From positions 1-47,514 of the forward strand of contig JAGNUG010000016.1 in assembly GCA_017987115.1 (NCBI GenBank): a DNA stretch of 47,514 nucleotides, written 5' to 3'. The notes under the pieces are model-generated. The model was not told the DNA's origin and ran no database searches. It saw nothing but the letters and a program-made list of their open reading frames with translations. The position numbers were made by a program, and so were the translations under genes. Every line of letters starts with the position of its first letter. Within the stretch, counting starts at the first letter, position 1. The stretch is from Flavobacteriales bacterium (GTDB taxonomy: Bacteria > Bacteroidota > Bacteroidia > Flavobacteriales_F > PHOS-HE28). Below are positions 3,001 to 28,693 of the stretch, piece after piece.

Positions 3001-3858
3001 TTATCTGAACAGGATCAATTTTCCTTGGTCTTGTTCGTTCAGCATATACAAGTAAACACCGGCCTGCAAATGGCTGAGGTCGATCTGTTCAATTTGGTTC
3101 GAGAGTGTTTTGGTATGAACGAAACGCCCGCTCATATCAATGATCTTAAACGTTTGAATAAGATCGGTCTTCCGGTTGATCGTTATTTGCCCAGTTGAAG
3201 GGTTCGGCGAAACTATGCTAGGGACAATGGATCCAACAGGATCAATACCTATGTTAATGGCGCAGGTGATCGTCCAAAGGTCATTAGGGTCGATCAATGG
3301 AACACCCGAAATCTTGTAACACCTCAAGGCCAAGTCAACTCCCAAGCCAGGCAATAATGGAAAGCCGATCCCGCTCATGCCACCGATGCCTTCTACGTAG
3401 TCATGGCCAGGTTCTACGTTAAAGCGCCTGCGAACCTCGCCATTTGCTAACGAAATGCTGTCTATACTATATAGTGTGCCTATGTGAAAATCGTACCAGT
3501 TTATCGAGTCACCGACCATTGCGTTATAGTCGTACAGCACAGTTTCAGCCGGAGCACCGTATGGATCAAGCACGAATACCTTTCGTGCTACGGTATCTTC
3601 CCTAAGATATTTTTCATCGAGATCAATATCATTCCAAAGACCACTAACGATCTTGTAATCCACATCCTGTATTGTTGTATCACCGCTAACATGGTAAGTG
3701 CCTGTTCCCGTCAGGTCCCCACAATAAGGTGGTGTTCCGCTAAAAGCCAAGCATTCAACATCCCAAGTCGCATTTTCGTTCAATGTGGGTATGTAGGCTT
3801 GGGCCGCTATCAGCAACGGAAGTGATAAGAAAAGAGCAAGTTGAATTAATTTGAACAT
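3001..3858 (-). CDS. Secreted protein with T9SS type A sorting domain
   Basis: A 285-residue protein with an N-terminal signal peptide (hydrophobic core, cleavage near 'IAAQ-AYI'). The central region of about 180 residues I do not recognise. A C-terminal domain of about 75 residues carries the 'SPNPSTGQITI' start, a 'FKIIDMSGR' strand and 'LQAGVYLYML' near the end, the usual layout of a Bacteroidota T9SS type A sorting signal. The protein should pass Sec to the periplasm and then leave through T9SS, with the tail removed. The central part has four cysteines, perhaps paired. It is the last of three cargo genes on this strand, 28 bases after the stop of the preceding one. Function beyond secretion is unknown. 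Confidence 0.8.
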   Translation of the reverse strand: MFKLIQLALFLSLPLLIAAQAYIPTLNENATWDVECLAFSGTPPYCGDLTGTGTYHVSGDTTIQDVDYKIVSGLWNDIDLDEKYLREDTVARKVFVLDPYGAPAETVLYDYNAMVGDSINWYDFHIGTLYSIDSISLANGEVRRRFNVEPGHDYVEGIGGMSGIGFPLLPGLGVDLALRCYKISGVPLIDPNDLWTITCAINIGIDPVGSIVPSIVSPNPSTGQITINRKTDLIQTFKIIDMSGRFVHTKTLSNQIEQIDLSHLQAGVYLYMLNEQDQGKLILFR

Positions 3859-3886
3859 ACCTAGTCGTGTTAATGCGTTAATACCT

Positions 3887-5350
3887 TCAATGGTGTATAA
3901 CCAGTTTTTCAGTGCGCAGCGTGTGTGTCTTGTTTACGAGTGTAACATTATACGTGCCAGACGCAACGGCTTGTGTATCCCAAACATAGTGCTGTTTTTT
4001 CTCGTTTACCTGATGTCGAAATAGCTCTCGGCCAAGTAAATCACTAACAACCAAATACGCCTCAGCCGTGGATTCGTGCATCGTATAGTCAATTGTAACT
4101 GTGCTTGTTGCTGGATTTGGAAAGAGGCTCAGTGTTGCATCAGATCGTGGATCCGAAAGCTCCTCCACCCCAACATTCACCTGTTTCAAGCGTATGATCA
4201 TGGTCTGGTCCGGGTGGTTCTGGTAGCCATCATCGAAACCATGAAAAAAGCCGTAGGCATACAGCATCCCATCCGGGCCCATCTCAAAATCGCGCATACC
4301 TAGTGCTATTATCGTATTCGGACCAACGATGGTATCACAATTCATCCCTGGAAAATACTCGGGTAGAATGGTTCCCGCTGTATCAATTGCAAAAACGCCT
4401 CCAACCCATTCTTCATTCAGCGTTGCGAATGAACCACCAATAAATAGTGTTGCAGAATCTAAGGTGTACATGCCCTGCACAACACCCACCGAACTGCTGC
4501 CCGGGTACTTGCGTAATCGAATATCGTAATTGAAACTATGGTCGATAGTGCCGTCGGGCATAAGCCGAACCAATGGGATTGTGTCGTTCGGAATCTCTGG
4601 TGAATGGAACCAGCCACTGGCCAATATTCGCCCATCGTTATAGAAATAGTAATCCGTTGCTGTGCCAAAGTCGATGTTTGTGTGGAATGTGCTATCCAAC
4701 GAACCATCATAGTTAACTTTAAAAATATGACCTACGGGTTGGCTATCGAATACATCCATAACACCACTTACCAAAAACTTACCATCCTGGTGCGCCACGA
4801 TCCGTTGTGCAATTCCGAATTGGCATTGCCGGTGCTGGAATGTACTATCTAAGTTGCCAAGCGTATCATACCGGGTAAGGCAAAAGTTTGCTCCGATCAA
4901 TGTGGTGTCTACGGTGCTGTATAGGTCACGACCGCCGGTAACCAGCACCTTATCATCTGGTAAGACTACGAATTGGCCGGCATGAACTGGTTGATAAAAA
5001 AAATTACCAATGGCAAACGAATAGTCCCGTTCTCCAGTTTCAAATTTACGAAAGACAGATTCCCCAATGCCAATATAATACCGATTCGACCATGGAACGA
5101 TCCCGCCCCCCCCGGAGAAACAGCCAGTCATATTCCCGTTGTAGTCAATTTTGGCAGAATAACACGGGGTAATTTCAGATTCAAACTGCAATAGTCCTGA
5201 GATCAGAATGTAATCATCGTAGAACTCGATGTCGGTTATAGACCTATGCTCTAAGTTCGTTGCAAAAGTGGTATCCACAACCCAAGCTTGCTGTGCATTC
5301 AAGAATAGGCTACAGAAGCCCAAGACAAATAAAGATGTAATCCGAATCAT
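3887..5350 (-). CDS. Secreted delta-60-repeat beta-propeller protein with T9SS type A sorting domain
   Basis: A 487-residue protein with a signal peptide ending near 'LNAQQAW'. The body contains several repeats of the delta-60 type, recognisable as 'Y.TLGNLDSTF', 'YDGSLDSTFHT' and 'PDGTIDHSFNYD', which build a beta-propeller. The C-terminus has the sorting domain: 'LSLFPNPATSTVTIDY', a 'VSDLLGRELF' strand and 'ASGTYNVTLV'. The ATG overlaps the TGA of the upstream 1857-residue gene (ATGA at 5347-5350), so the two are almost certainly translated from one mRNA. It is expected outside the cell or on its surface. Propellers of this kind are usually binding scaffolds; no catalytic residues are visible and the ligand is unknown. 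Confidence 0.85.
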   Translation of the reverse strand: MIRITSLFVLGFCSLFLNAQQAWVVDTTFATNLEHRSITDIEFYDDYILISGLLQFESEITPCYSAKIDYNGNMTGCFSGGGGIVPWSNRYYIGIGESVFRKFETGERDYSFAIGNFFYQPVHAGQFVVLPDDKVLVTGGRDLYSTVDTTLIGANFCLTRYDTLGNLDSTFQHRQCQFGIAQRIVAHQDGKFLVSGVMDVFDSQPVGHIFKVNYDGSLDSTFHTNIDFGTATDYYFYNDGRILASGWFHSPEIPNDTIPLVRLMPDGTIDHSFNYDIRLRKYPGSSSVGVVQGMYTLDSATLFIGGSFATLNEEWVGGVFAIDTAGTILPEYFPGMNCDTIVGPNTIIALGMRDFEMGPDGMLYAYGFFHGFDDGYQNHPDQTMIIRLKQVNVGVEELSDPRSDATLSLFPNPATSTVTIDYTMHESTAEAYLVVSDLLGRELFRHQVNEKKQHYVWDTQAVASGTYNVTLVNKTHTLRTEKLVIHH

Positions 5351-8300
5351 TTTGCAACAACAAATCGTTGTAAACCGAGCACTTTTGCAGCGATGCGCAA
5401 CTCAGCGGTATAGGTGCCTGTTTTTATTCCGCGCACATCCCAAACTTGTTGTGAAGCACCGAGTTGCACTGTTAACCTACCAACATTTCGGCCCGAAATA
5501 TCTTGAATGTCAATGGTTGCGCCTTCTACACGTTCTGGCAAAATGGTTTCAAAGGTTATCCACGTTTGAGCCGGATTCGGGTACGCCTTGAATGTTATGC
5601 CGTCCGTGTCAAATATTTCGTCAGTACTTGGTTGTTCGAGCAACGCTTTGGGTGTAATGGTGCCACCTGTAACTGGTGCTGTACATTCACCATAAGCGAA
5701 ACACAACAGATTCTGTGCCCAAACACCGGCATGGGTTGGCCTGCCTTGTGCAACCTGTTGCAAGTTGGATTGCGCGCCAGCGCTTAAATGGAACAGATCA
5801 ATCGCTGCATTGTTGGCAGCTTTGTACACTGCAATGAGGCCGATCATGTCAGCGCGTTCCTCTTCTTCATGGTCGTTCAGCCTGTACTGCTGGTCCAGGT
5901 CCTGAGCCACATCTTCTGCATCATTAAAGCGCCCAAGTTCCATCAGGGTTTGTATTTCACTATAACGGGCACCAAGCACCGTGTTCTGCTCAAAGCGTAC
6001 CAATAGCGAATCCAGTGGTTGCGGCACTGTGTCGTTTTTCATGTCGGCAATAAGCTTATCATTCCAATGTCCCATTAAGGCAAAGTGTTGCGCCATGCTG
6101 CTTTCGAGGCTCGTGCGCCAAGTGCGTTGATTCCAACTAGCATGGATCTGTTGGATCATGTAATGCGGCAATGGGCTAGGTGCTTCGAATTCGATCCATT
6201 TATCAAATCCTTTCTGTTTAGTCGCTTCCGGGTTGGCCAAACAGATCTCGAGCATCATGGCATCAGGGAGGATATCCCTGATCGCGGCCTCCTTCAATAT
6301 TTCCACGCTTAAGTACGGGCTATTGGCCATAAGTTCATTCCGCAAGTCCCATGCTTCATTGGGCCAAGTCAGCATTATTGTTTCTTTCAATTCGTCGAAA
6401 TCACCGCCATCCAAAAGGCTTTCGAAGACATATTTCAAATTTAGGTAAGCCGACTTTTGATCCTGAAAAAGATTGTGAATAGGCCCAGTTGTCATACCGT
6501 GTGTTTCTGGATAACGCACGCGAGAGACACAGGTGTTATAAGGTGAATCATTGCTGCCATCTACTACCACATATGGGAAGTTATAAGCTCCAGGGTTTGG
6601 TTTCCCAGGTGGTAACTCCCAGAAATAAGTAATGGGTGCGCCTTGAGCCTCATTGTCGTAATTGTAGAACAGACTTGTCCCCATTTGGGTTGCGGTAAAC
6701 GTATTCCCGGCAGATAAACTGGTTGAACCTTGGAACGTCTTGATGCAGTTTTCATTACCGGGAGTGCCCAGCGGTGGAGTCCTTACTACAAAATCGCGGT
6801 CGCTATTTGGAGCCGGGTTATTGCACTCAAAAGACAAGCCCGTTATAGTACTGTTATCTTCATCATAGCAATTTCCTTCAGCCACAAAGCTGTTTTCTAA
6901 GTGTTCAGATTCGTTATTGTAGACTAAGTCATTGTACGGGCCAGTATAGCCCATTACCGGACCTTCAATAGGAACACCGGATATCGCATTGGCCTCTTTC
7001 ATAAAGTCGTTCTCTTGGATGTGAAAACCAAAGCCAGTGTAATTATAAATTGCACGATGAAATAATTGAAACGCATCGTCTTCCATACCAGCCAAGGTAA
7101 CCTCCCGGTTACCCATAACAAACTCATTGCGGTTAATATCGAAGTGGTTTACGCCACTAGTGTAAACACCACAAATGTTATTCTCGAATGCGCTGTTGGT
7201 TACCCAGAAGGTGCGGCTATTTGAGCCGGTGCTAAGTGCATGTATACCGTGGTCTAGCCCAATAAACTTCGATCGTGTTAGGCTTGCTTCATCGCATACC
7301 GGTATTGGATGACCAGGGTCGATGGGTATTAGGTAACTGCATTGGCCAGTAACTCCGTACCCAGCATCAATGCTAATGATACCAAAGCCCAGTTTATTAC
7401 TTGGGGTTGTGGTTACTGTGGTTTGTTCGTTGATAAAATCGCATGCTGTGAATTTGATCCCATGCACATCCCACATACTTATATGGGCATAGAAATCGTC
7501 TCCACCATAATAGTTGTCATCTACTTTGAACTCGCAGCGGGCAAATTTGCTTCGGTTCACCATTTCTTGTCCGCTACCCGAAAAGTTTTTATAGCTCAGG
7601 AATGTGGCTGAACGCCTACAATTAATGAAATGCGCATCCGTAGCATCGATCACACCTCCGAAAGTTCCCCAATCTTCATTCTTTTTCATCGTAATTGCCT
7701 CTCGCGCATTTTCGATCGTGGCTCCATTTCTTAGCACCACATATCCTTGATGAGCGGGTTGGCTGGTTGGCCACTGATTTTCAGAGTTGTCTCCCCAAAC
7801 CTGTATACCACTCCAAAAGTCTCCACACGCGCTGTTTATGGTACCGCCATCCACCAATAATTTAGCACCTTCCTCTACGATGATCCCAGTGCCGGGGTAC
7901 ATGGAAAGTGTGCCATTTATAGTAAGCATAGCACCTGCTTGCACGCGCCAGTTCGAGTAGCCATAACTAAATCCGTTTACAGGAATAGTGGTGGTCGTGC
8001 TAATGACATGTTCCGCAATTGGTGTTTCGTAGATATCGGTTTGCCAAATACCTCTGCCGAAGGTACTTGCAAAAAGTTTCTTTGTGCATAAGTTCACCTT
8101 CACTTCGGTTACAATACACATTGGCATGTCTTCATTGAAGCATTGCCATTCCCCAATTGCCGGGTCATACACAAAGACCCCGGCATCTGTACCTGCATAA
8201 AGAATTCCACCAGAACCTCTTTGAATTTCCAGATCGTTAACCGGAAGCCCTAATAATCCTTCGGAAATGTCCTCCCAATTTTCACCATCATCTACAGATC

Positions 8301-10920
8301 TGTACACGCGCTGGGTCCCATCACTGTTCCAACCTGCAAACGAAACATAAACAGAAGCAGGTTCATCTGCTGGTATGTCCGGGTCCACGATCACATCCGT
8401 AATGCTGAACCGAGACAAAGGTTGTACCCCTGTACCACCTGAATTAGTGAAGCGTAAACGACTTGTAATGTCAGTCCACGTAATTCCCCCATCTCGTGTA
8501 CGCAAAAGGCCGTTGACCTGATCTTCACTAGGATCATATTCGATTCTGTTGCCTCCGATGAACATCACGTTGTCATCTTCCTCATGTATACCGATGCCCC
8601 AAACATAGTTTTGATATCCATCCGGGAGGCTGGCCATTGTGTTAACGGTAGTGGTGCAATTTGCCTTGTACAACTCACGATGGCCAACGTACATGCGAAA
8701 TGCTTGATTGGTTTTGTCAAAATAGAGTTCAGCATGACTGCCAAGTACAAAATCTCCAGAGTAATGACTACGTGTGCAATTGGTGGTGCCAGTAACCGTT
8801 AACGTGGCTGTCGGGTTGGCTTGAGTAACCCTCGCCTTCAGGCTGCCATCGAAAAGGCTGAACGATCGGCTAACGCCACCATCACCAACACTCTGACGTG
8901 TCCAAGCTCCAGTGCCAAAATCGTATTCGAAATTGCCGTTATCCTGGGTGCCTCCGATCAACAATTTTTGTGGTGCATCCACGCCCATACCGTAGAACTG
9001 GGTTATTGGTAGACCTGTGCCTTCTAGACTTGTAAAGTTCAGGGATGTTGCCTGGCCCCCATTTGTAGCGAGGCTTACTCCTCCATCATCTCCTTTCAGG
9101 ATGACTTCAGCGCCATTTGTTGCATCGTCAATAATAAAGATCGAGCGACAATCTGGATGCCCATCCATCGAACCAACTGGTGTTAGGTATCCGTCATCTT
9201 CGCGAAACAACGTTATATTATCAGTGCCGTATTGATTGTTGGAGCCACCAACATAGACATTGCCATTTCCTGTGACCCTGAATTGGCCGCCAAGCTCCGA
9301 AAATACTGAGTTTAATGACGATTGAAAGTTGTGGAACGTGCTAAACCCGACGCTTATGTCATCCATTCGGGCGAGTATTCGATCTTGGGGAGAACCATGG
9401 ATCCGACTCTTATAAAGAATAAATACCCCAGGGAACTGGGCGCTTTGGTCCTCTACCGCGTCAGCCACGAATAGATCCATGGCATCAGTCGTAAATGTCG
9501 TACTGCTAATGATAATACCCGTAGAGTTAGCTCCAGTAAATGTGGCCTCGAATACAAGTCGTTTGGCGAAAACATTACTCATTACAGGAATGCTAACGGT
9601 TCCGTTTTCATTTGCGCTGAACACATGCAAAGGGGTCAAGTTCGTTACGTCCGGTGGAGTTCCCGCAACATCATCACCGGGCACCGCGTAAACCCGTAGT
9701 ATGGAATTGGCATCTTTGACGAGGTCGATGTTAAGAACGTAGTACCCTTGCCATACCAAGCTAAAATCCGGATAATCGTAAGCCACCAAAGAAGTTGTGG
9801 CAGCGTCAGCTTGAATGCTCAAATTGGCTGGCGAAGTATTCAAATGCCATACGTTCGGGAGTGTACCTGATTGTTGACCAACGAAACGAAATGCTTGCGT
9901 AAAATTAACCGCAAGTGCTGTTTGGTTCGTAGAGAATTGGCTCGTAAGGTCAGTCCAATTATCACCTGCATCCACAGACATATATACTTTGGCACCGAAA
10001 TTTACGCCGTTCTTAACAAACGATGAAAGGACTAGTGCATCATTATTTGCGTCTTGGCGATAATGGACAATTTTGTTGAAACCTCCCTGTGGGCCAATGG
10101 TCATTGTGCCGGTAATGTCTGTAAATGCATTGATGCTCGTGAAATCTGCTGTTGCAGGCGCTTTGAAAACCTTCGAGGATTGCACGATATATATGTTACC
10201 CTCAAACACTTTGATATCTTCTACGCGCTGCCCATTTACATCAGGCACGAAATCGAGTAGGTTCGTCCAATTGGCTCCGTTTCCATCGGAGATCCAAACA
10301 CCTGCGGAGTAATTGTATCGCCCTCCGGTACCTATGATAATTCGCCCTGCATCAGTAACTGCTATTGTGCCAATACCCATGCCGGGAATACGTATGTCAT
10401 CAGTCAAACACTCCCAACTCCAAACACCTTGGTCCTTTGTACCTCGCCAAAGACCGCTAGCGTTCGTTCCGATCAATGCTGTGGTTACCGGCAATTCTTG
10501 TGGAGCCCACACGGTCCAAACAATACCCATGTCATGCCTGTTGGTAGCGCCACCGGGACTGGTTATGGGTCCCATAAGTTGCCATGGTGTTGGGTTCTCA
10601 TTATCTAAACACCAAGGACTAGCAGAATAGGATCTAAGCTGATCTACATAGGATTTCATATTGCCTACTTTCGTGGGGTCGTCGGTCTGGGTGCGATGCT
10701 TCCAGAAGTATTCAAATCGTCTAAATTTCTTCCATTCGTGTGACGTACTGTCGATCAGCCCTGCTGCCACATCACTCATGAAGGCATTTTCCACTTCCTG
10801 ATAAGTAAAGCCTTCATTCAATTGCACATCCTGCCAGGATTGCCCGTGAACCGTATTATTCAACAGAAAGAGTAATGTGAGGAATGCACTTTTAGCGCAA
10901 ATGGTTTTCAGGATGTTCAT
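5347..10920 (-). CDS. Giant secreted protein: BNR/Asp-box propellers, parallel beta-helix, helical region, T9SS sorting domain
   Basis: A 1857-residue protein with a signal peptide (cleavage near 'VHGQ-SWQ'). The first ~960 residues contain Asp-box/BNR turns such as 'SVDAGDNWTDL' (about 315), 'RDGGITWTDITS' (about 812) and 'SVDDGENWEDIS' (about 882), pointing to one or two sialidase-like propellers without an obvious active site. Residues about 980-1420 look like a right-handed parallel beta-helix ('LTINGTLSMYPGTGIIVEEGAKL' region and repeated short strands). Residues about 1480-1730 are helical. The last ~85 residues are a type A sorting domain beginning 'KAYPNPAQTWITF'. It is the first gene of a three-gene cargo operon, with a candidate promoter 38 bases upstream. 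It is likely exported by T9SS to the surface. The role is unknown; adhesion or polymer binding is only a guess. Confidence 0.85.
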   Translation of the reverse strand: MNILKTICAKSAFLTLLFLLNNTVHGQSWQDVQLNEGFTYQEVENAFMSDVAAGLIDSTSHEWKKFRRFEYFWKHRTQTDDPTKVGNMKSYVDQLRSYSASPWCLDNENPTPWQLMGPITSPGGATNRHDMGIVWTVWAPQELPVTTALIGTNASGLWRGTKDQGVWSWECLTDDIRIPGMGIGTIAVTDAGRIIIGTGGRYNYSAGVWISDGNGANWTNLLDFVPDVNGQRVEDIKVFEGNIYIVQSSKVFKAPATADFTSINAFTDITGTMTIGPQGGFNKIVHYRQDANNDALVLSSFVKNGVNFGAKVYMSVDAGDNWTDLTSQFSTNQTALAVNFTQAFRFVGQQSGTLPNVWHLNTSPANLSIQADAATTSLVAYDYPDFSLVWQGYYVLNIDLVKDANSILRVYAVPGDDVAGTPPDVTNLTPLHVFSANENGTVSIPVMSNVFAKRLVFEATFTGANSTGIIISSTTFTTDAMDLFVADAVEDQSAQFPGVFILYKSRIHGSPQDRILARMDDISVGFSTFHNFQSSLNSVFSELGGQFRVTGNGNVYVGGSNNQYGTDNITLFREDDGYLTPVGSMDGHPDCRSIFIIDDATNGAEVILKGDDGGVSLATNGGQATSLNFTSLEGTGLPITQFYGMGVDAPQKLLIGGTQDNGNFEYDFGTGAWTRQSVGDGGVSRSFSLFDGSLKARVTQANPTATLTVTGTTNCTRSHYSGDFVLGSHAELYFDKTNQAFRMYVGHRELYKANCTTTVNTMASLPDGYQNYVWGIGIHEEDDNVMFIGGNRIEYDPSEDQVNGLLRTRDGGITWTDITSRLRFTNSGGTGVQPLSRFSITDVIVDPDIPADEPASVYVSFAGWNSDGTQRVYRSVDDGENWEDISEGLLGLPVNDLEIQRGSGGILYAGTDAGVFVYDPAIGEWQCFNEDMPMCIVTEVKVNLCTKKLFASTFGRGIWQTDIYETPIAEHVISTTTTIPVNGFSYGYSNWRVQAGAMLTINGTLSMYPGTGIIVEEGAKLLVDGGTINSACGDFWSGIQVWGDNSENQWPTSQPAHQGYVVLRNGATIENAREAITMKKNEDWGTFGGVIDATDAHFINCRRSATFLSYKNFSGSGQEMVNRSKFARCEFKVDDNYYGGDDFYAHISMWDVHGIKFTACDFINEQTTVTTTPSNKLGFGIISIDAGYGVTGQCSYLIPIDPGHPIPVCDEASLTRSKFIGLDHGIHALSTGSNSRTFWVTNSAFENNICGVYTSGVNHFDINRNEFVMGNREVTLAGMEDDAFQLFHRAIYNYTGFGFHIQENDFMKEANAISGVPIEGPVMGYTGPYNDLVYNNESEHLENSFVAEGNCYDEDNSTITGLSFECNNPAPNSDRDFVVRTPPLGTPGNENCIKTFQGSTSLSAGNTFTATQMGTSLFYNYDNEAQGAPITYFWELPPGKPNPGAYNFPYVVVDGSNDSPYNTCVSRVRYPETHGMTTGPIHNLFQDQKSAYLNLKYVFESLLDGGDFDELKETIMLTWPNEAWDLRNELMANSPYLSVEILKEAAIRDILPDAMMLEICLANPEATKQKGFDKWIEFEAPSPLPHYMIQQIHASWNQRTWRTSLESSMAQHFALMGHWNDKLIADMKNDTVPQPLDSLLVRFEQNTVLGARYSEIQTLMELGRFNDAEDVAQDLDQQYRLNDHEEEERADMIGLIAVYKAANNAAIDLFHLSAGAQSNLQQVAQGRPTHAGVWAQNLLCFAYGECTAPVTGGTITPKALLEQPSTDEIFDTDGITFKAYPNPAQTWITFETILPERVEGATIDIQDISGRNVGRLTVQLGASQQVWDVRGIKTGTYTAELRIAAKVLGLQRFVVAK

Positions 10921-18419: not shown

Positions 18420-19238
18420 CTAAGCGTTAGAAGCAGAAAACAATTTACCCCACAACGGACATAGCACGTACAAAAGTAAAAGCATTGGGACAGCCTGCAT
18501 TCCAAATAAGGCAATAAGGAGGATACCAATACTTAATAGGATGTAGATCACTTGATTACCCTGCCATCCGAAATGCTTGAATTTCAGCCCCGGAAGCTGA
18601 AGCTCGGAAAGCATGAGTACACCCAGGATAAGTGAGATGAGCATTAAATAAGGACTATACAATAAGAGAAGTAGGAGGGACTTCAGCAAACCTCCGAACG
18701 GGGCCACAAGTCCTCCAGACCCCGTGATCGCTAGCGGCAAACTTGCCCAGAACAGACCATTGGCCGGTGTTGCCAAACCTAGGAATCCGTGTGTCTGGCG
18801 CGTATCCACGTTGAACTTGGCCAGTCTCCAAGCCGAAGCGACAACGAGTATCAATACAGTTATTCCGGTTAGTGCGAATATCTCATTGGCATCCTCCAAC
18901 TTGCCACCCACATTAACAGGCCCTTCGAAAGCCATGGCCATAAGCGATAAGAATTGCATGGGTTCAGCTAAGGGCATTAGTACCATGAACCAGATGATCA
19001 GAGCCGGCGCTACGCCAAAGGTCACCAGGTCTGCCAAACTGTCCAATTGCGCACCCAAGGCTGTGCCTCCGCCAGTAGCCCGAGCAGCGAAGCCGTCCAG
19101 CACATCGAAGAATCCGCCTGCGAATACCAACCAACACGCCATTGTTAGCTGTCCTTGTGAAGCCAAGAGTATGGATGCGACCCCGCAACATAGGTTCGCA
19201 CTCGTCAATAGATCAGGTAGTTTAGGCAAACGGAGCAT
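18420..19238 (-). CDS. pssA: CDP-diacylglycerol--serine O-phosphatidyltransferase
   Basis: A 272-residue integral membrane enzyme that makes phosphatidylserine, the precursor of phosphatidylethanolamine, from CDP-diacylglycerol and serine. The CDP-alcohol phosphotransferase motif is complete: Asp45, Asp48-Gly49, Ala52-Arg53, Gly62, Asp66 and Asp70. The N-terminal 'LPDLLTSANLCCGV' is typical of type II PssA. Several hydrophobic segments follow, and the C-terminus is membrane-embedded. The psd decarboxylase is not nearby. It is divergently transcribed from the PorV/PorQ-family gene across a 102-base gap. Confidence 0.93.
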   Translation of the reverse strand: MLRLPKLPDLLTSANLCCGVASILLASQGQLTMACWLVFAGGFFDVLDGFAARATGGGTALGAQLDSLADLVTFGVAPALIIWFMVLMPLAEPMQFLSLMAMAFEGPVNVGGKLEDANEIFALTGITVLILVVASAWRLAKFNVDTRQTHGFLGLATPANGLFWASLPLAITGSGGLVAPFGGLLKSLLLLLLYSPYLMLISLILGVLMLSELQLPGLKFKHFGWQGNQVIYILLSIGILLIALFGMQAVPMLLLLYVLCPLWGKLFSASNA

Positions 19239-19340: not shown

Positions 19341-20456
19341 ATGATAAATAGAATGAGTTCGAGAACTATCGCACATCGCATATTGGTGGTTTTGGTTGCC
19401 TGTATGGCCCTTTTTAACGTTTCGTACGCACAATCTGATGCTCCGAAATACAGTAACGAATTCCTAGCTATTGGCGTGGGTGCCAGGGCTTTGGGCATGG
19501 GAAATGCATATACCGCAGCGGTCAATGATGTCACCAGTGGTTATTGGAATCCGGCAGGACTTACCGGCGTGACAAGCGACCTCCAAGTTGGTGCTATGCA
19601 CAGTGAATATTTTGCAGGTATTGCCAAGTACGATTATATCGGCCTCGCGAGACCGATCGATTCTTCCAGTACCATTGGATTCACGTTCGTCCGTTTCGGC
19701 ATCGATAATATCCCCAACACCATCGATCTGTTCGACCCTTCAGGAAACATCGATTACGATCGCATCACTTCCTTTAGCTCGTCGGACCATGCGTTCATTT
19801 TGACCTATGCGCGAAAGCTGCGAACTCCGGGTCTGCAAGTAGGAGGTAATGTGAAAGTGATCTATCGCCGCGTTGGTGAATTCGGTAAGGCTTGGGGTTT
19901 CGGCTTGGATGCAGCCTTGCAATATCAGCGCAACCAATGGCGGTTTGCCGCGGTTGCCCGTGATGTTACCAGCACCTTCAATGCATGGAGCTATACGTTG
20001 GATCAGCGCACCATTGAGGTCTTTGCGCAGACCGGCAATGAAATTCCGGTGAATTCCGTTGAGGTCACCCTGCCCAGACTGATGCTTGGTGTGGCGCGTC
20101 AATTCAAGATCGGCAGTAAGTTCAATATTCTGGCAGCCATCGATCTGGAGAATACGTTCGATGGAAAACGAAATACATTGATCCAGACAAGCACATTCAG
20201 TTCGGATCCACGGGTTGGTCTCGAATTCGGATACGCCAACGTGGTTTTCGTGCGTACCGGTGTCAGCTACTTCCAATACATTACGGATATCAACGACAAG
20301 CGAACGCTGAACGTTCAACCGAACATCGGTCTGGGGTTGAAGATCAAGAGCGTTTCGCTGGACTATGCACTTACCGATATCGGCGATAACAGTGTTGCAC
20401 TCTATTCCAATATCTTTTCCCTTCGGTTCGATCTCTTCAAGAAACCTAGCCAATGA
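19341..20456 (+). CDS. PorV/PorQ-family T9SS outer-membrane protein
   Basis: A 371-residue beta-barrel of the PorV/PorQ family with a signal peptide ending near 'VSYAQ-SDA'. The N-terminal hallmark is 'FLAIGVGARALGMGNAYTA' followed by 'TSGYWNPAGLTG', shared by FadL-like PorV and PorQ proteins, which shuttle T9SS cargo to the surface attachment machinery. The C-terminus ends in alternating strands ('SNIFSLRFDLF'). Its TGA overlaps the ATG of the C25-peptidase gene (ATGA at 20453-20456), so the two are translationally coupled. Whether it is the true PorV or a specialised paralogue cannot be settled here, because canonical PorV usually follows PorU and this gene precedes a PorU2-like one. Confidence 0.85.
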   Translation: MINRMSSRTIAHRILVVLVACMALFNVSYAQSDAPKYSNEFLAIGVGARALGMGNAYTAAVNDVTSGYWNPAGLTGVTSDLQVGAMHSEYFAGIAKYDYIGLARPIDSSSTIGFTFVRFGIDNIPNTIDLFDPSGNIDYDRITSFSSSDHAFILTYARKLRTPGLQVGGNVKVIYRRVGEFGKAWGFGLDAALQYQRNQWRFAAVARDVTSTFNAWSYTLDQRTIEVFAQTGNEIPVNSVEVTLPRLMLGVARQFKIGSKFNILAAIDLENTFDGKRNTLIQTSTFSSDPRVGLEFGYANVVFVRTGVSYFQYITDINDKRTLNVQPNIGLGLKIKSVSLDYALTDIGDNSVALYSNIFSLRFDLFKKPSQ

Positions 20457-23400
20457 GAAGAACCTTACTGTTCGTTATATTCTTATACAGCGCCTTACAT
20501 AGCGTGGCCCAGGTTCCTCCTGGAAACCAGTGGATAGACTATAGCCTACAGTATTGGAAGTTCAGTATCGCAGCGGATGGTCTCTATCGAATTGATTCCA
20601 CAGCACTTGCTGATGCTGGTTTTCCAATAACAACGATCGACCCACAGGACCTCATGGTCTTTGGGCGTGAACAACAGGTACCCATTTACATTGAAGACGG
20701 TGGTGATGGCACTTTGAACGGTGCGGATTTCATTGAGTTCCAAGCCAAGAAGAACGATGGCTGGTTGGACGCGCAGCTCTATGCACAACCCTCATTTCAA
20801 CCGAACCCGTATTACAGCCTATATAATGATACGATCTACTATTTCATCACGTGGAGTGTAACTGCACAGAAGGAAAGGGTAGTGCCGTATGTGAATACGG
20901 ACTTTGCCGGTCATACACCACGTCCATGGTATTGGGGAGAAACGATCAGTTCCTTGACCGGCATTTATAGAATGGGTTACAACCAGCCCGGTGGCGCCGC
21001 GGTTACCAGCGGGTTCTATGTTGAAGGAGAGGGCAGGTTGCACCAAGCGGCGATCGTATCCAATTCGCCGAACGGTGCCTCCCAACCGCATACCATCTTA
21101 ACTCCTCGTGCATATCAAGGCCCCGATGCGCCGGATGCGCGTGTTTACACGGCTGTGGCGTCGCTGAATCATCGGGTGGCAGATAATCAATTGGATCATC
21201 ATTCCGTGGTCAGCTATGGACCCGCACCGGGCACGGATATGATCGATACGATTTTCAACGGTGTGCATACGATAAAAGCCGATTTCGATGTGCCGGCTTC
21301 TGCTCTAGGTGCGAACCTCGTGATCAACTACAAAGTGCCACATGACCTGTATTCGCTGGGGTTTCTCTCGGATTCCAACTACACGGATTATCAGAACGTC
21401 TCTAACACACGAATACGCTATGCAAAGGAGATGCACATGTATGCACAAGGGTTAATGAACATGTGGATCCCACAAGACCCAAGCGACCCGATCGCACGAG
21501 TTGATTTCACCAATTTTTCTGGCCAGCCGATCATGTATGCGTATGGAGATTCGGTGCGTCGTGTAATTCCAACGCAAGTTCTTTCTACGAGACAGGCCTT
21601 ATTTCCTACGGATCCATCCGGGAATGATACGTACGTTTTCCTGCATAAAGTACCCGTTGTTCCAGTTGGCACGATCAAGCGAGCAGGTCAGAATGGATAC
21701 TTTACCGACTTCAGTGCGGTACAGGAGGATTCCGCTCAGTTGATCGTCGCGCATAGTACGTTGATGCAAGGTGCGAACGCCTATGCGAGCTACCGCGAGA
21801 ACATGGCGCCCGATGGTAGTCGGTATAACGTGGTCATTGCCGATGTCGATGAATTGTACGATCAATTCGGAGGTGGCATACCGAAACATGCCATTGCTAT
21901 TCGTAAGTATTGCAAGTTCGCTTATGACACATGGAATACGCGCCCTAAAGCGTTGTTGCTCATTGGTAAATCCGTGCAGACAGCATTCATCAACAATTTC
22001 GATGTCGGTTATAGACCGGATGCACAAGGGGCTTATGCGCGTTGTTTGGTTCCCTCGTACGGTTATCCAAGTAGCGATCAGTGTTTCACGTTGGCTATTG
22101 GCCCGGATCCGAACAGATTGGCATTCCCAGTGGGGCGTATCAGCGCGTATACGGATAACGACGTTTACGCTTATCGCGATAAAGTGAGTGCTATGGAGAA
22201 TCAAGCACCAGCTCCATGGATGAAGAACATCCTTCATTTCAGAGGTGGGACGAGTGCCGGTGAATCGGCGTCGTTCTATTTCATTTTGAAAGCCCTCGAG
22301 GATATCGCTGTGGACACCTGTTTTGGTGGAGTGGTTACGGATTTCATTAAGTCCGGTTCTAATGTATTCGAACAGGCATCCGCGGATTCAGTGAAACATC
22401 TGATCGAGGACGAAGGTGTAACATTGATGACGTTTCTCTCCCATGCGTATGGTGAGAACTTTGAAGTGACCATTGATAATCCGGCGAATTACGATTGGAA
22501 CGGAAAGCACCCTGCTGTTCTCGGCCTTTCCTGTTATATCGGCAATATCCACCTCAACTCTAATTTGAGTGCCGCCGAGAAATGGGTGCTCATGCCGGCC
22601 AAAGGCCCCATTGCTTTCATGAGCACTCCGATAAGTGGGTATCCATTCGCGCTTTCGGCTTATGCTAGTAAGTGGTATGAGAGCTTCAGTACGTTGAATT
22701 ATGGTGGGACCATTGGAGACCACATGGCATTCGCTCTGAATCGACAGTTGCTCAGCTCAACGGATGTGATCACGTTAAGCAATGCGCATTCGTTTACATT
22801 GGAAGGTGACCCACTGATCCGATTGAACTCACCGTTGCTCCCGGATTATTCCGTTTCTGCCCAGGACATCTATTTTGAACCCGACCCGGTAACCGCGGAT
22901 GCAGATACGTTCATGGTAAAAGCCGTTGTTCGCAACATCGGTAAAGCAACAAATGCGTCATTCAACGTAGCATTGGATCGTGACAATACTGGTCTTGGCC
23001 TAACACAGACGGAGAATACCACGATGTCCAGCGTGTACAACGCAGATACCGCATACTTCAGCTTGGCGACACAGGCATTCAGCGGTGGAGCCGGTGTGAA
23101 CCAATTGACCATACGTGCCGACTTGGATCCGGATGTTGTTCCTGAATTGGATGACTTGGGAAATAACGTCACAACAACTTCATTGTTCATCACATCAGGC
23201 GATCTGGTCCCTGTGTATCCGTATGACTATGCGATCGTTCCGGATGCTGCTCCAATTTTGAAAGCAAGTACTGGAGATCCGTTAGCACCTCCACGTACAT
23301 ATCTGTTCGAGATCGATACGACCGATCTATTCAATAGTCCGATCCGTGAGGCCACAACGTTAACAGCACCGGGTGGTGTGGTGAATTGGCAACCACAGAC

Positions 23401-25621
23401 CATTTATAACATCAACTCCCTTCAGGACAGTACCGTGTTCTTCTGGCGATGTACCATTGATAGTACGGGGAATGGTGGATACAATTGGTACGAGCGTTCG
23501 TTCCAATACATCGAAGGAAAGAGCGGATGGGGACAAGCACACTATTTCCAGTTCAAGAATAATAGTTACAACGGGGTTGTTTATGACCGACCGCAACGCG
23601 ATTTCGACTTCTTCACTGGCGCTAGACATGTGCGTGCTTCAGTGCGTGATAGCATCTCCGATAACAACACGGGTTGGTACAGAGATAATGTTACGCAGGA
23701 ATATAATAACGGTTGTCAAGTGCCAACCGCATGGATGGTGGCGATCATCGACCCTATCACATTCGAACCGTGGGAAACCTTCTGGACAGCACCGGATGGA
23801 ACCCAATACAATGCCGATCATCAGTTCGGGAATATGAACAATAACACCGCTTGTAGGGACCGGGTTGAAAAAGTATTCAGTTACAACACAACGATACCTG
23901 CACAAATGGTTGCGCTACAGGATCTATTGGAGAACCAGGTGCCTGTAGGTCACCACATACTTATGTACACTTGGCGCTATATGGATCAGGATGGTATGCA
24001 GGCCAATAATCCAGGATTGATACCCGCTATTGAAAATCTGAGTGGTGGTAATATGAGCTTCGCAAGTATGTATGACAGCGCTGCTTATATATTTTACGTG
24101 CAGAAAGGGTTTCCGGCAACCTTCCAGGATACGCTGGCACCGGCGATCTTTCCGCCGCCGGGAGATCCAAGTGAAGACGGTGTGATCGATCTCTCCGTAT
24201 ACATTTCCGGACCGGGGAACCGAGGAACTATTTCCTCTTTGGTTGCAGGGCCAGCAAGTGCGTGGCATGCACTCTATTGGAACGAGGTGCCAATTAGCCC
24301 AACTGATAGTACGACGATCTCACTTATCGGAGTTCGAGCGGACCTTTTGACCCAGGATACGTTGATGACGATGCCGTCCGTGTTGGATTCGGTCCCCGAC
24401 CTTAGTTCCGTGGATGCGACCTTGCATCCTTATTTGAAGATATCCGGCAGTTATCACGATTACGGTGCTTTGACTCCGAAACCAGCGCAACAAGAGCGGT
24501 GGCAATTGCTCAGTTCCCAAGCACCGGAATGCGCCATCGATCCACCGGTGGGTTACGTGAACGGTTTGGATGATCTGTTCGAAGGTCAGAACGCATCGCT
24601 CGCCATTGCGGTCCATAATATCGGTGAAGTGGATATGGACAGTTTGTTGATGACCGCGTGGGTGATCGATAGGAACAACGTGAGACGGCGTGTGCATTAC
24701 AAGTACAATGCGCCCTTACTGGTTGGTGGTATATTGATGGATACGATCGTGTTCTCCACCCTAGGATACGGTGGCCCCAATACGATCATTATCGAAGCCA
24801 ATCCGGAGGATTCGCTGACAGGAGTTTACGATCAATTGGAACAAACGCACATCAATAATATCGCGCAACTCCGCTTTAATGTGGAGATGGATATTGAGAA
24901 TCCGTTGTTGGATGTGACCTTTGATGGGATCCATATCCTTGATGGCGATATCGTTTCCGCAAAACCGGAGATCTACATCACGCTTGATGATGAAAACCCG
25001 GTCCTGTTAATGAATAGCGTGACCGATACGACTTTGTTCCAGGTCTACCTGAAAACACCGGGTGCCAATGAAGAGCGTCTTTATTTCAGGGCGAATGGAC
25101 AAGATCAGCTGCTGTTCGAACCTTCCACCGGATCAAATAACATTTGTCACATTCGCCATTTCGGGAATTTCGAGATCGATGGCACATATGAACTCCGTGT
25201 GCGCGCCAGGGACCTGAGCAACAACAACTCAGGCGATAAGGATCTGATGATCAGTTTCGAGGTGATCAATAAACCGACCATCACGGAAACGCTGAATTAC
25301 CCGAACCCCTTCACCACAAGTACACGTTTCGTATTCACGGTCACTGGCTCTCAACCTCCAACGAACATGAAGATCCAGATCATGACCGTAACGGGTAGGG
25401 TTGTCCGTGAGATCAAAATGCACGAGCTCGGTCCTATACATGTTGGCCGGAACATCACGGAATACGCATGGGACGGTACCGATGAATTCGGTGATAAGCT
25501 AGCACGTGGTGTCTACATCTACCGTGTGATCTCACAGCTGAACGGCCAAGAGATCGAATACCGGGAGACAGGTGCCGGTGACTACTTCAAGAAGGGTTTC
25601 GGCAAGATGTACAAATTGTAA
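20453..25621 (+). CDS. porU2: C25-family cysteine peptidase, PorU2-like T9SS sortase
   Basis: A 1722-residue exported protein (signal peptide ending near 'SVAQ-VPP'). Residues about 420-770 are a gingipain/C25 peptidase fold. The candidate catalytic His is 664 in 'FLSHAYGENF' and the Cys is 694 in 'LGLSCYIGNIH', with 'PVGRIS' and 'LEGDPLIRL' flanking as in PorU proteins. CARDB-like Ig domains follow (about 770-860 and 1370-1480). A large unassigned middle comes between them. A FlgD-like C-terminal domain carries 'LNYPNPFTTSTRF' and 'WDGTDEFGDKLARGVYIYRV'. Canonical PorU cleaves the sorting tail of T9SS cargo and attaches it to LPS. PorU2 is the longer homologue known in some Bacteroidota. Its substrate preference is not known. 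It is coupled to the upstream PorV/Q-family gene. Confidence 0.82.
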   Translation: MRRTLLFVIFLYSALHSVAQVPPGNQWIDYSLQYWKFSIAADGLYRIDSTALADAGFPITTIDPQDLMVFGREQQVPIYIEDGGDGTLNGADFIEFQAKKNDGWLDAQLYAQPSFQPNPYYSLYNDTIYYFITWSVTAQKERVVPYVNTDFAGHTPRPWYWGETISSLTGIYRMGYNQPGGAAVTSGFYVEGEGRLHQAAIVSNSPNGASQPHTILTPRAYQGPDAPDARVYTAVASLNHRVADNQLDHHSVVSYGPAPGTDMIDTIFNGVHTIKADFDVPASALGANLVINYKVPHDLYSLGFLSDSNYTDYQNVSNTRIRYAKEMHMYAQGLMNMWIPQDPSDPIARVDFTNFSGQPIMYAYGDSVRRVIPTQVLSTRQALFPTDPSGNDTYVFLHKVPVVPVGTIKRAGQNGYFTDFSAVQEDSAQLIVAHSTLMQGANAYASYRENMAPDGSRYNVVIADVDELYDQFGGGIPKHAIAIRKYCKFAYDTWNTRPKALLLIGKSVQTAFINNFDVGYRPDAQGAYARCLVPSYGYPSSDQCFTLAIGPDPNRLAFPVGRISAYTDNDVYAYRDKVSAMENQAPAPWMKNILHFRGGTSAGESASFYFILKALEDIAVDTCFGGVVTDFIKSGSNVFEQASADSVKHLIEDEGVTLMTFLSHAYGENFEVTIDNPANYDWNGKHPAVLGLSCYIGNIHLNSNLSAAEKWVLMPAKGPIAFMSTPISGYPFALSAYASKWYESFSTLNYGGTIGDHMAFALNRQLLSSTDVITLSNAHSFTLEGDPLIRLNSPLLPDYSVSAQDIYFEPDPVTADADTFMVKAVVRNIGKATNASFNVALDRDNTGLGLTQTENTTMSSVYNADTAYFSLATQAFSGGAGVNQLTIRADLDPDVVPELDDLGNNVTTTSLFITSGDLVPVYPYDYAIVPDAAPILKASTGDPLAPPRTYLFEIDTTDLFNSPIREATTLTAPGGVVNWQPQTIYNINSLQDSTVFFWRCTIDSTGNGGYNWYERSFQYIEGKSGWGQAHYFQFKNNSYNGVVYDRPQRDFDFFTGARHVRASVRDSISDNNTGWYRDNVTQEYNNGCQVPTAWMVAIIDPITFEPWETFWTAPDGTQYNADHQFGNMNNNTACRDRVEKVFSYNTTIPAQMVALQDLLENQVPVGHHILMYTWRYMDQDGMQANNPGLIPAIENLSGGNMSFASMYDSAAYIFYVQKGFPATFQDTLAPAIFPPPGDPSEDGVIDLSVYISGPGNRGTISSLVAGPASAWHALYWNEVPISPTDSTTISLIGVRADLLTQDTLMTMPSVLDSVPDLSSVDATLHPYLKISGSYHDYGALTPKPAQQERWQLLSSQAPECAIDPPVGYVNGLDDLFEGQNASLAIAVHNIGEVDMDSLLMTAWVIDRNNVRRRVHYKYNAPLLVGGILMDTIVFSTLGYGGPNTIIIEANPEDSLTGVYDQLEQTHINNIAQLRFNVEMDIENPLLDVTFDGIHILDGDIVSAKPEIYITLDDENPVLLMNSVTDTTLFQVYLKTPGANEERLYFRANGQDQLLFEPSTGSNNICHIRHFGNFEIDGTYELRVRARDLSNNNSGDKDLMISFEVINKPTITETLNYPNPFTTSTRFVFTVTGSQPPTNMKIQIMTVTGRVVREIKMHELGPIHVGRNITEYAWDGTDEFGDKLARGVYIYRVISQLNGQEIEYRETGAGDYFKKGFGKMYKL

Positions 25622-25631
25622 TGGCCAAAGG

Positions 25632-27332
25632 ATGGAGATAACCCGTGCCCGTGTTGCGGCATGGGCTGCGGGATCCGGATTACTATGGTCATTGGCGTGG
25701 CCTTATGTTGGCGGATTTACGTGGGTCGCATTTTTTGCATGGTTACCATTGCTTCACGCCGAACGACTGCATTCGCAACGCACTGCGAACAAGGCACGAT
25801 CATTCTTCCCTTATGTGTGGATCACAACGCTGATCTGGAATGGCCTAGGTGCTTGGTGGTTTTATAATGTTAGCGAACCACTGGAAACGCGATTGGTAAG
25901 TGGTACAGCACCGCTGGTCGTGAATTCATTGTTGATGACCATCCCATGGTGGTTGAAACGCGTCGTGAACAAACGGTTCGGAATGCAATGGGCCGCTTGG
26001 GCATTCATCGTATTCTGGATCGCGTTCGAACGGCTACATCATGGCTGGGATCTCCAATGGCCGTGGTTTTCCATTGGCAATGTCTTCGGCACACAACCTG
26101 TGTGGATCCAGTGGTATGAGATCACAGGAATGCTGGGTGGAACACTTTGGGTCCTGCTGGTCACGCTGATTCTTGATCGGGCACTAGTAACATGGATCGG
26201 AAATGGTCCACGGAAAAAGATCGTCACCAACACGTCGATCGCCGTCGCACTTGTTGCTATCCCGATCGCGATCTCCTTGGCGCGTTTCTACACGTACCAG
26301 CAAAAAGGTTCAACTGCGGAAGTGGTTGTTGTGCAACCGAACATCGATCCGTACAATGAAAAATTCGGAGGGGTGGATGCGCTCATACAATTGGACCGGA
26401 TGCTGGCTTTGGCAAGGACCATGGTCACCGATAGCACCCAGTTGGTCCTATTACCAGAGACCGCCTTGCAAGAGAATGCAACCGTAGATGGAAGTTCCGG
26501 AACACAAAAATTCTTAGGTCTTTGGGAAAATGACCTGCACGCTTCCAAGAGCGTACAGCGCATCAAAGAATTCCAAGAGGAGTTTCCGCACGTATCCATT
26601 TTGGCGGGTATGAACAGTGATAGCCTTTATCCTGCAACTGGACCACGACCCATCGCGGCAAGACCGCTTTACAGAGATTTACCTCCGGACATGGAAGCCG
26701 AACAAAGGTGGTACGTTGCGTACAACGCTGCATTGTGGATGCCTGCGAAAGGCCCGATCGAAAGCTACCATAAATCGAAACTTGTGGCCGGTGTAGAACA
26801 GCTGCCGTTCGATAACGTTCTCGGGCCTATTGGTGCATTAGTAGTTGATCTTGGTGGCACAACCGGCTCGCTTGGAAAACAGAAGATCCGCTCGGTCCTA
26901 ATGGATGGCAACTCAGAACTACGTGTCATCCCCGCGATCTGTTACGAATCCGAATTCGGGGAACACATTGCAGCGCATGTGCGCAACGGTGGGAACCTAC
27001 TTGCTGTAATTACCAATGATGGTTGGTGGGGTGATTCACCCGGCTACAAGCAGCACATCACCTTCGCGACCATCCGAGCCATTGAAATGCGCAGGGATGT
27101 TGCACGCTCCGCAAATACAGGCATCTCCTGCTTCAGTGATCAACGCGGCGTGTTGCGCGACCATACGGATTGGTGGGTACCCACTGTGATCCGTTCAACC
27201 GTTCACTTGAATGATAAGATCACTTTCTATGCTGCACACGGTGATTTCATTGGGCTGGTAGCAATGGTGTTGGCATCGACTCTGCTGTTGGTGCTCGTCG
27301 TGTACGCGGTCTTGATCAAGATCCACTCCTAG
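25632..27332 (+). CDS. lnt: Apolipoprotein N-acyltransferase
   Basis: A 566-residue inner-membrane enzyme that adds the third acyl chain to the N-terminal Cys of lipoproteins. About six N-terminal membrane segments (to about residue 225) are followed by a nitrilase-type catalytic domain. The triad is visible as Glu276 ('LLPETALQ'), Lys381 ('SYHKSKLV') and Cys437 ('AICYESEFG'). Instead of the 'VPFGE' that follows the Lys region in proteobacterial Lnt, it has 'VAGVE'. The ATG at 25632 is used. Another ATG at 25621 is out of frame and stops after six codons. The gene starts 10 bases after the PorU2-like gene and its TAG overlaps the TAG of the convergent downstream gene. Confidence 0.93.
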   Translation: MEITRARVAAWAAGSGLLWSLAWPYVGGFTWVAFFAWLPLLHAERLHSQRTANKARSFFPYVWITTLIWNGLGAWWFYNVSEPLETRLVSGTAPLVVNSLLMTIPWWLKRVVNKRFGMQWAAWAFIVFWIAFERLHHGWDLQWPWFSIGNVFGTQPVWIQWYEITGMLGGTLWVLLVTLILDRALVTWIGNGPRKKIVTNTSIAVALVAIPIAISLARFYTYQQKGSTAEVVVVQPNIDPYNEKFGGVDALIQLDRMLALARTMVTDSTQLVLLPETALQENATVDGSSGTQKFLGLWENDLHASKSVQRIKEFQEEFPHVSILAGMNSDSLYPATGPRPIAARPLYRDLPPDMEAEQRWYVAYNAALWMPAKGPIESYHKSKLVAGVEQLPFDNVLGPIGALVVDLGGTTGSLGKQKIRSVLMDGNSELRVIPAICYESEFGEHIAAHVRNGGNLLAVITNDGWWGDSPGYKQHITFATIRAIEMRRDVARSANTGISCFSDQRGVLRDHTDWWVPTVIRSTVHLNDKITFYAAHGDFIGLVAMVLASTLLLVLVVYAVLIKIHS

Positions 27333-28693
27333 CGCACCAGCGGGATCCTACGTGACATCACCCCGTTTTGGCCATCGAACCGCACCATGTAGATGCCGCT
27401 GTTCAGCGAACTCTTCGGGATCTTGATGGTGCTCAACCCTTCCGGGAACGCAACCGTGTTCTGCTCCCAAACAACCTTCCCGCTGGCATCCAACAAACGA
27501 ATAGCTTGGTTTTGATCATGCGCCATCGTTACATGCACATTCAGGTCCATGCCATCGTCCCAACTATTGATGATCGCTGTCTCGCCACTACCTGAACAAG
27601 AGGTCGTTCTTACATCACTTACCTTCTCGTCTCCGTTCGTGTCGGTCTGGCGAAGTCTGTAAAATGCATTGCTTGGCGGGGCCTGATCAACGAAACGATA
27701 ATCGATCATTTGAAGGCTAGTGCCTGCTCCATCCACTTGTCCTATCGGAATGAATTCTACGCCATCAACGCTTCGTTCAATGGTGAAGTAGTCGTTATTC
27801 AGTTCACTGGCGGTAGTCCAGGAAACGGTCACCGCACGTGCATCACATTGGGCATCGAAACGGACCAGTTCAACTGGAAGTGGATTGAGGATGTCAGAAA
27901 GTGTCCAGGACCTGAACAAACTGGCCGGAGGAACAACTGCATTGGTTACGGATCCCACCGCCCACGTGCCAACTCCAGGTGCAAAGTCTCCCCATTTATC
28001 AATACCGGAATTGAACCGTTGCGCTCCTAAAGGAATACCGGCAATCAGGTTACCAGCTTGAATATCCTCCACAGGGCTGTACGTGAATCCCAAGGTCAGG
28101 GCAGGATTTGCGGTGAAGGCGTATGGAGCAACATTTACATCAACGATCCAGAAACGGTCCACCACATGGCGCGATTCATTCGTCGCGATCGGCGTAGTTG
28201 CAGTACCGGTCTGCCAGTTGTTCATATGCGTTACATCGCTCGGACGATAGGCATTGTTATCCCAAGTCGCCCCTCCGACAGTATGATTGTATGTGGCAAA
28301 AACGATGGATGATGCACCTGTGCCAGTGCCACTTCCGGTTACGGCACAAGTGAAGGGTATCTTAGTGCCAAGCCCGGATGCATAAGGTATTACGTACGTG
28401 TTGCCCGCCGCGGCATTACCAACGTTCCAACGGATCATGTCATTTTCAGCCTCACTGATGATCATGCCCCCCGCACCCATTGTGGTTATCGCATTCGGTG
28501 CCGGATTCTGAAGCACAAGCCAAGCTCCATTGTCGATCACCACACGTGCATCATTGTTCAGCACCAACCTCCCTTGTGCGTTCGACAGAGCAGGACTGAG
28601 ACTTAGAATTCCGCAAACCAAGATCAACACTGCCGGTTTCAGCACCAAGCAGAGGCCTTGATCTGGTAACAGTTGGTCGTTGTATTTCATCAA
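27329..28693 (-). CDS. Secreted protein with divergent T9SS-type C-terminal domain
   Basis: A 454-residue exported protein. A long N-terminal stretch precedes the hydrophobic core, with cleavage near 'LSNAQ-GRL'. The first 270 residues have the 'RLVLNNDARVVIDNGAWLVL' and 'TYVIPYASG' patterns common in Bacteroidota proteins that begin with short repeated beta strands. Residues about 270-370 form a fibronectin-like segment: 'LPVELVRFDAQCDARAVTVSW', 'TASELNNDYFTIERS' and 'FYRLRQTDTNGDEKVSD'. The last 80 residues resemble a sorting domain ('IRLLDASGKVVWEQ', 'NSGIYMVRF') but lack the usual PNP start. It is probably secreted by T9SS. Function unknown. It converges on lnt with a 4-base overlap. Confidence 0.78.
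   Translation of the reverse strand: MMKYNDQLLPDQGLCLVLKPAVLILVCGILSLSPALSNAQGRLVLNNDARVVIDNGAWLVLQNPAPNAITTMGAGGMIISEAENDMIRWNVGNAAAGNTYVIPYASGLGTKIPFTCAVTGSGTGTGASSIVFATYNHTVGGATWDNNAYRPSDVTHMNNWQTGTATTPIATNESRHVVDRFWIVDVNVAPYAFTANPALTLGFTYSPVEDIQAGNLIAGIPLGAQRFNSGIDKWGDFAPGVGTWAVGSVTNAVVPPASLFRSWTLSDILNPLPVELVRFDAQCDARAVTVSWTTASELNNDYFTIERSVDGVEFIPIGQVDGAGTSLQMIDYRFVDQAPPSNAFYRLRQTDTNGDEKVSDVRTTSCSGSGETAIINSWDDGMDLNVHVTMAHDQNQAIRLLDASGKVVWEQNTVAFPEGLSTIKIPKSSLNSGIYMVRFDGQNGVMSRRIPLVR

Follow-up and report, generated by a model that had tools for sequence, protein, structure and literature searches.

The C25 peptidase domain is common to the gingipains and to PorU, the sortase of the type IX secretion system (T9SS). 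In Porphyromonas gingivalis, PorZ is described as binding anionic lipopolysaccharide (A-LPS) and presenting it to PorU (PMC8545088), and PorU and PorZ are themselves reported to be C-terminal domain (CTD) proteins with unprocessed tails (PMC10202324). In F. johnsoniae, type A CTDs are described as using a PorV shuttle (PMC12618676). Beyond P. gingivalis, the anchoring of T9SS cargo is poorly known. Here we describe a gene pair, porV2-porU2, on a 47,514-nucleotide stretch of DNA from a Flavobacteriales bacterium (GCA_017987115.1, contig JAGNUG010000016.1, positions 1 to 47,514 of the forward strand; hereafter the window). We propose, with moderate confidence, that the pair encodes a second, ancient T9SS sortase with its PorV-family barrel, which would act independently of PorZ and most likely on type A CTDs.

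A second PorV-PorU-type gene pair

The first gene, porV2 (19341..20456, forward strand), encodes a PorV/PorQ-family outer-membrane barrel of 371 residues that scores 510.7 bits against the NCBIfam PorV2 model NF052325 (cut-off 325) and matches the solved PorV 6h3i at E 3.2e-4 (phmmer). The second, porU2 (20453..25621, forward strand), encodes a T9SS sortase-like C25 protein of 1722 residues, with 597.5 bits against the PorU2 model NF052324 (cut-off 450). Both proteins exceed the curated cut-offs of these families and stay below those of the canonical models, with 169.6 bits for PorU (NF033707, cut-off 420) and 41.4 bits for PorV (NF033710, cut-off 250). The stop codon of porV2 and the start codon of porU2 overlap in the letters ATGA (20453..20456, forward strand), as read from the sequence. 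A preliminary description of the locus had reported this overlap and the 1722-residue C25 protein, which the open reading frame coordinates and the Pfam C25 match confirm; the NCBIfam assignments support its reading as a T9SS-type sortase with a PorV/PorQ-family partner. The family names exist in the 2026 NCBIfam library, where NF052324 is called ‘putative type IX secretion system sortase PorU2’. In the open-licence PubMed Central (PMC) literature the whole word ‘PorU2’ does not occur, and a mention of ‘PorV2’ was a false match in a text that concerns PorV.

The genome also carries, on another contig, a canonical PorU of 1328 residues (1242.6 bits, NF033707), with a canonical PorV directly downstream. 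The pair in the window is therefore a second system, and not the only porU and porV of the genome, an outcome that the preliminary description had left open. All 35 genomes of the genus code to which the window belongs (its own included) have at least part of a canonical PorU, and 33 have a complete or partial PorU2; the two without PorU2 are 73% and 82% complete. In a phylum-wide sample, some match to NF052324 was found in 236/345 genomes and lay above the cut-off in 30, and long PorU2-like proteins occur below the cut-off in many further genomes.

An intact C25 dyad in a separate clade

The C25 domain of PorU2 spans residues 430-791 (21740..22825, forward strand; Pfam PF01364, 1.3e-45). A profile of this region matches P. 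gingivalis PorU (6za2) at 1.2e-16, with the catalytic dyad aligned. His664 (codon 22442..22444) and Cys694 (codon 22532..22534, both on the forward strand) are His and Cys in 83/83 aligned PorU and PorU2 proteins. The dyad noted in the preliminary description is thus intact by both sequence position and alignment, and it coincides with the C25 pair of a solved PorU.

The N-terminal, C25 and C-terminal parts of PorU2 can all be aligned with the canonical PorU of the same genome. At the C-terminus, an Ig and FlgD-like region common to both proteins covers residues 1476-1692 (24878..25528, forward strand; blastp 1.5e-19 against the genome's own PorU; 87.7 bits over this stretch of NF033707). Within it lies a FlgD_ig sorting-domain-like tail (residues 1621-1692; 25313..25528, forward strand; Pfam PF13860, 3e-5), with the motif YPNPF just ahead at residues 1616-1620. 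The FlgD-like tail and its motif are therefore present as first described, although the FlgD_ig score of 24.4 bits is under the curated Pfam cut-off of 27. The type A sorting-domain model TIGR04183 also stays below its cut-off (20.9 bits, cut-off 23), so that the sorting-domain call rests on the alignment with the PorU C-terminus. The protein may well be both enzyme and secreted protein, as the preliminary description held, but this is ordinary for PorU according to PMC10202324. Its unusual length, some 400 residues beyond the genome's own PorU, is typical of the PorU2 family. The CARDB-like domains also mentioned there were not found by Pfam in the window protein (E 0.01), but are present in 23/28 PorU2 relatives.

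In a tree of the C25 region from 83 proteins, 19 canonical PorU split from 64 PorU2-type proteins with support 100/100, and the window protein sits among Flavobacteriales. The tree, whose root position is an assumption, took in 13/69 complete named PorU2 proteins; the alignments A3 and A4 hold 67/70 available rows (all but L082, L134 and L153). As judged from these sequences, PorU2 is an ancient paralogue of PorU that is widespread in the phylum. Two further groups stand out. Four long PorU-like proteins (L249, L250, L251 and L282) form a third clade (100/98) without the additional domain described below and with a PorV-family barrel encoded directly downstream. Three short PorU2-type proteins of one family (L218, L219 and L220; 1080-1345 residues) also lack this domain, and their genomes carry canonical PorU.

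A POMGnT1-stem-type domain in PorU2

The extra length of PorU2 is not padding. It houses a GG/ILEI domain of the FAM3 and POMGnT1-stem type, which had gone unseen in the preliminary description (residues 1030-1235, core 1078-1228; 23540..24157, forward strand). Residues 806-1722 were modelled at a mean predicted local distance difference test score (pLDDT) of 87.9. Structure comparison of this whole segment was uninformative, as complement components and other Ig-rich proteins dominated the Foldseek list, in which PorU 6za2 came at rank 17. Folding the insert by itself overcame this: from a 67-row alignment, residues 1030-1235 gave a pLDDT of 91.2 and a predicted template modelling score of 0.86. 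The best structural match of the model is the human POMGnT1 stem (5ggn; Z 13.8, 2.6 Å over 135 residues), followed by FAM3B, FAM3C, FAM3A and TMEM2, and the next, unrelated row has a Z of 2.8. Foldseek with the isolated domain places the same families on top, at E 0.008 or worse.

Pfam ILEI (PF15711) gives no match in the window segment at E 1. The family is nevertheless recognised in 31/67 Flavobacteriales segments (best 1.6e-9; the window's segment is not among them) and in 16/28 and 12/21 other PorU2-type proteins (best E 1.4e-19; 49/50 scanned, all but L222), and is listed for none of 19 canonical PorU. A profile seeded by a copy with such a match finds the window protein at 1.5e-38 and detects the domain in 110/120 PorU2-type proteins and in 0/19 canonical PorU. 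A profile of 35 domain copies, from alignment A8 (35/41 rows, without L222, L234, L244, L247, L252 and L286), matches POMGnT1 at 6.6e-17. By modelled fold and by profile, the window copy is thus homologous to the GG/ILEI domain. A co-mention of PorU and ILEI was not found in the open-licence PMC literature.

The POMGnT1 stem and FAM3C are reported to bind N-acetylglucosamine (GlcNAc), with Arg129, Asp179 and Arg207 as the POMGnT1 contacts (PMC9802357), and a phage module of this fold has been named a carbohydrate-binding module (PMC9437275). Residue-based sugar binding by the window copy was tested and is unsupported: the three residues are replaced by T/R/S, in a correspondence that was read by hand from the alignments and from how far apart the three numbers lie. 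As the known contact residues are not conserved, we claim the fold for the window copy and not sugar binding. Four other PorU2-type proteins (L237, L245, L248 and L226) have a GG domain that retains all three residues.

Lineages with PorU2 but neither PorU nor PorZ

The phylogenetic distribution was assessed in 58 genomes, hand-picked from the phylum sample and spanning 52/54 family codes; the search for SprA took in 25 of these, that for PorV 10 and that for sorting domains 8. Canonical PorU lies above the cut-off in 50/58, and 46 of these 50 also have PorZ above the cut-off, with two more PorZ proteins at full length just below it. Two genomes, G190 and G318, are exceptions to the pairing of PorU with PorZ, with a canonical PorU and no PorZ above the cut-off. 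Among the eight genomes without canonical PorU, none has PorZ, and three (G002, G010 and G230) also lack SprA.

The remaining five, G007 and four genomes of family code f36 (G195, G309, G328 and G344), carry PorU2. All five retain SprA and PorV and encode 8-35 type A sorting domains each; type B CTDs number 0 in the four f36 genomes, which indicates type A substrates. Their PorU2 proteins have two origins on the C25 tree. The presence of PorZ (46/50 with PorU, 0/5 in the PorU2-only genomes) differs at p 3.6e-5 in a Fisher test, a value that is optimistic because of the relatedness of the genomes and the choice of those with a single match. With SprA, PorV and type A cargo all in place in these genomes, PorU2 is probably able to act as sole sortase where PorZ is missing. 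Given that PorZ presents A-LPS in P. gingivalis and is absent here, PorU2 probably obtains its acceptor otherwise.

Conserved coupling of porV2 and porU2

In 69/80 related named loci porU2 is immediately preceded by porV2, and in 38/80 the two genes share the exact 4-base overlap. Of the other 11, seven have at least 1 kb of upstream sequence without porV2 and four lie at contig edges (<1 kb upstream). This pairing exceeds chance. Linked porV2-porU2 genes are also present in the culturable Cryomorpha ignava (record L095). The canonical genes are found in reverse order, the barrel following porU in 18/19 loci with an intact PorU frame. In many other families PorU2 has no adjacent barrel. PorV2 also occurs above the cut-off without PorU2 in four genomes (G012, G021, G029 and G041), and strong PorU2 without PorV2 in three (G049, G190 and G249). 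The ‘dedicated’ attachment unit of the preliminary description is therefore not supported.

Neighbouring genes and nearby cargo

Divergent to porV2 lies a gene for a pssA-like CDP-alcohol phosphatidyltransferase (18420..19238, reverse strand; TIGR00473 101.5 bits, below the cut-off of 107). Of the 69 loci in which porV2 is linked, 62 have a pssA-like gene, invariably on the other strand and in a few some kilobases away; five of the other seven are short of upstream sequence, and two with room lack it. Three genomes that have no porU2 likewise carry such a gene next to or close to porV2. Canonical porU is directly preceded by a pssA-like gene in L259, and in L254 one lies upstream of it. Archaeosortase-dependent anchoring is described as needing PssA and PssD, with artA adjoining pssA in several methanogens (PMC7157517). 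This parallel and the divergent pssA pairing make a lipid acceptor worth testing.

Downstream follows lnt (25572..27332, forward strand; TIGR00546 177 bits, cut-off 132.9), whose start is probably the ATG at 25632, as judged by eye. Lnt follows porU2 in 20/62 loci with downstream room, so that a lipoprotein N-acyltransferase as conserved partner is suggestive yet lineage-limited, and we did not build on it. In two genomes that lack porU2 (L273 and L274), the gene after porV2 encodes an Lnb-like lipoprotein N-acyltransferase instead.

Four type A CTD proteins are encoded in the window, at 3001-10920 and 27329-28693. The number expected is 1.9-3.2 (sorting-domain scoring in this genome took in at most 150), so that the proximity of cargo means little. 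The suggestion that the pair serves the several cargo proteins nearby is not supported, and we reject nearby cargo as evidence for the substrate. No homologue of one CTD neighbour, of 1857 residues, turned up in the 80 related loci.

Proposed role of PorU2

Like PorU, PorU2 would first pass through Sec and next, by means of its own FlgD-like tail, through the T9SS. The coupling of the genes suggests that the PorV2 barrel probably keeps PorU2 attached to the outer membrane. There, the His664/Cys694 dyad would cleave C-terminal sorting domains, most likely of type A, and PorU2 would transfer the new C-terminus of the cargo either to an acceptor or to water. In contrast to PorU, PorU2 would not depend on PorZ. 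The GG/ILEI domain, a sugar-binding fold in other proteins, may share in the recognition of the acceptor. We consider it somewhat probable that PorU2 functions as a sortase for type A cargo.

Several points weigh against this proposal. The PorU2-only genomes were picked for showing one match, and the test covered four f36 genomes; a fifth, G199, had given two matches in the phylum sample. PorZ loss could follow PorU loss for reasons unrelated to PorU2, and most tested PorU2 genomes retain both PorU and PorZ. The profile search finds no GG domain in 10/120 PorU2-type proteins, and the sugar-contact triad, replaced in the window copy, is intact in just 4/112 domain copies. In the open-licence PMC literature we found no experimental work on PorU2.

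In a more specific version, PorU2 would serve as sortase in a second T9SS anchoring route without PorZ-delivered A-LPS, and its POMGnT1-stem-type domain would recognise a different acceptor. By analogy, this acceptor could in Flavobacteriales be an amine phospholipid, because in 62 loci a gene for phosphatidylserine synthase lies divergent to porV2-porU2. The occurrence of pssA beside porV2 even without PorU2, and the failure to find it near PorU2 in the PorU2-only genomes, count against the lipid part, and we consider this version unlikely.

PorU2 could instead be a secreted protease of gingipain type, a degradative surface enzyme and cargo rather than a sortase. The shared C25 domain and the cargo-type tail are compatible with this. 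However, the only PDB sequence match of PorU2 at E 0.001 is PorU 6za2, with no gingipain, and the homology to PorU reaches past C25 into the N-terminal and C-terminal Ig-FlgD regions. The conserved coupling to a PorV-family barrel, and genomes with T9SS and type A cargo in which PorU2 is the only PorU-type protein, likewise make a gingipain-like role decidedly unlikely.

That most PorU2 genomes also carry PorU and PorZ, and that the domain order around C25 is common to PorU and PorU2, would suit a redundant backup acting on the same cargo, with A-LPS as acceptor and in the PorQ/PorZ complex. Such redundancy is very improbable in view of the deep PorU/PorU2 split kept across the phylum, the extra domain in PorU2 only, its own barrel in many lineages and its persistence without PorZ. 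Least credible is a PorV2-PorU2 unit dedicated to a cargo subset, chiefly the CTD proteins encoded nearby: the tight coupling and the four such proteins in the window speak for it, but each partner occurs without the other, nearby cargo is not enriched, the 1857-residue neighbour lacks homologues and canonical PorV is retained in the PorU2-only genomes.

A putative second sortase found across the phylum, whose GG domain canonical PorU lacks and for which there are natural lineages without PorU and PorZ, offers a direct genetic system for a possible second anchoring chemistry.

Comparison with known systems

The PorU2 pair is known but uncharacterised. The NCBIfam PorU2 and PorV2 models assign a putative role only, to which we add the POMGnT1-stem-type domain and the genomes free of PorU and PorZ. 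Like PorU (P. gingivalis 6za2; NF033707), PorU2 has the C25 His/Cys dyad and related N-terminal and C-terminal Ig-FlgD regions. Unlike PorU, it is extended by GG/ILEI and usually CARDB domains and falls in a separate clade, and its gene usually comes after that of the barrel, the reverse of the canonical order, in which porU precedes porV. The inserted domain resembles the POMGnT1 stem, FAM3 and TMEM2 in predicted fold and in profile, but it is bacterial, lies within a sortase and, in the window copy, has not kept the GlcNAc-contact triad. PorZ, described as two β-propellers and a CTD (PMC8545088), may be a functional counterpart as an acceptor-presenting part, and it is absent from the five PorU2-only genomes.

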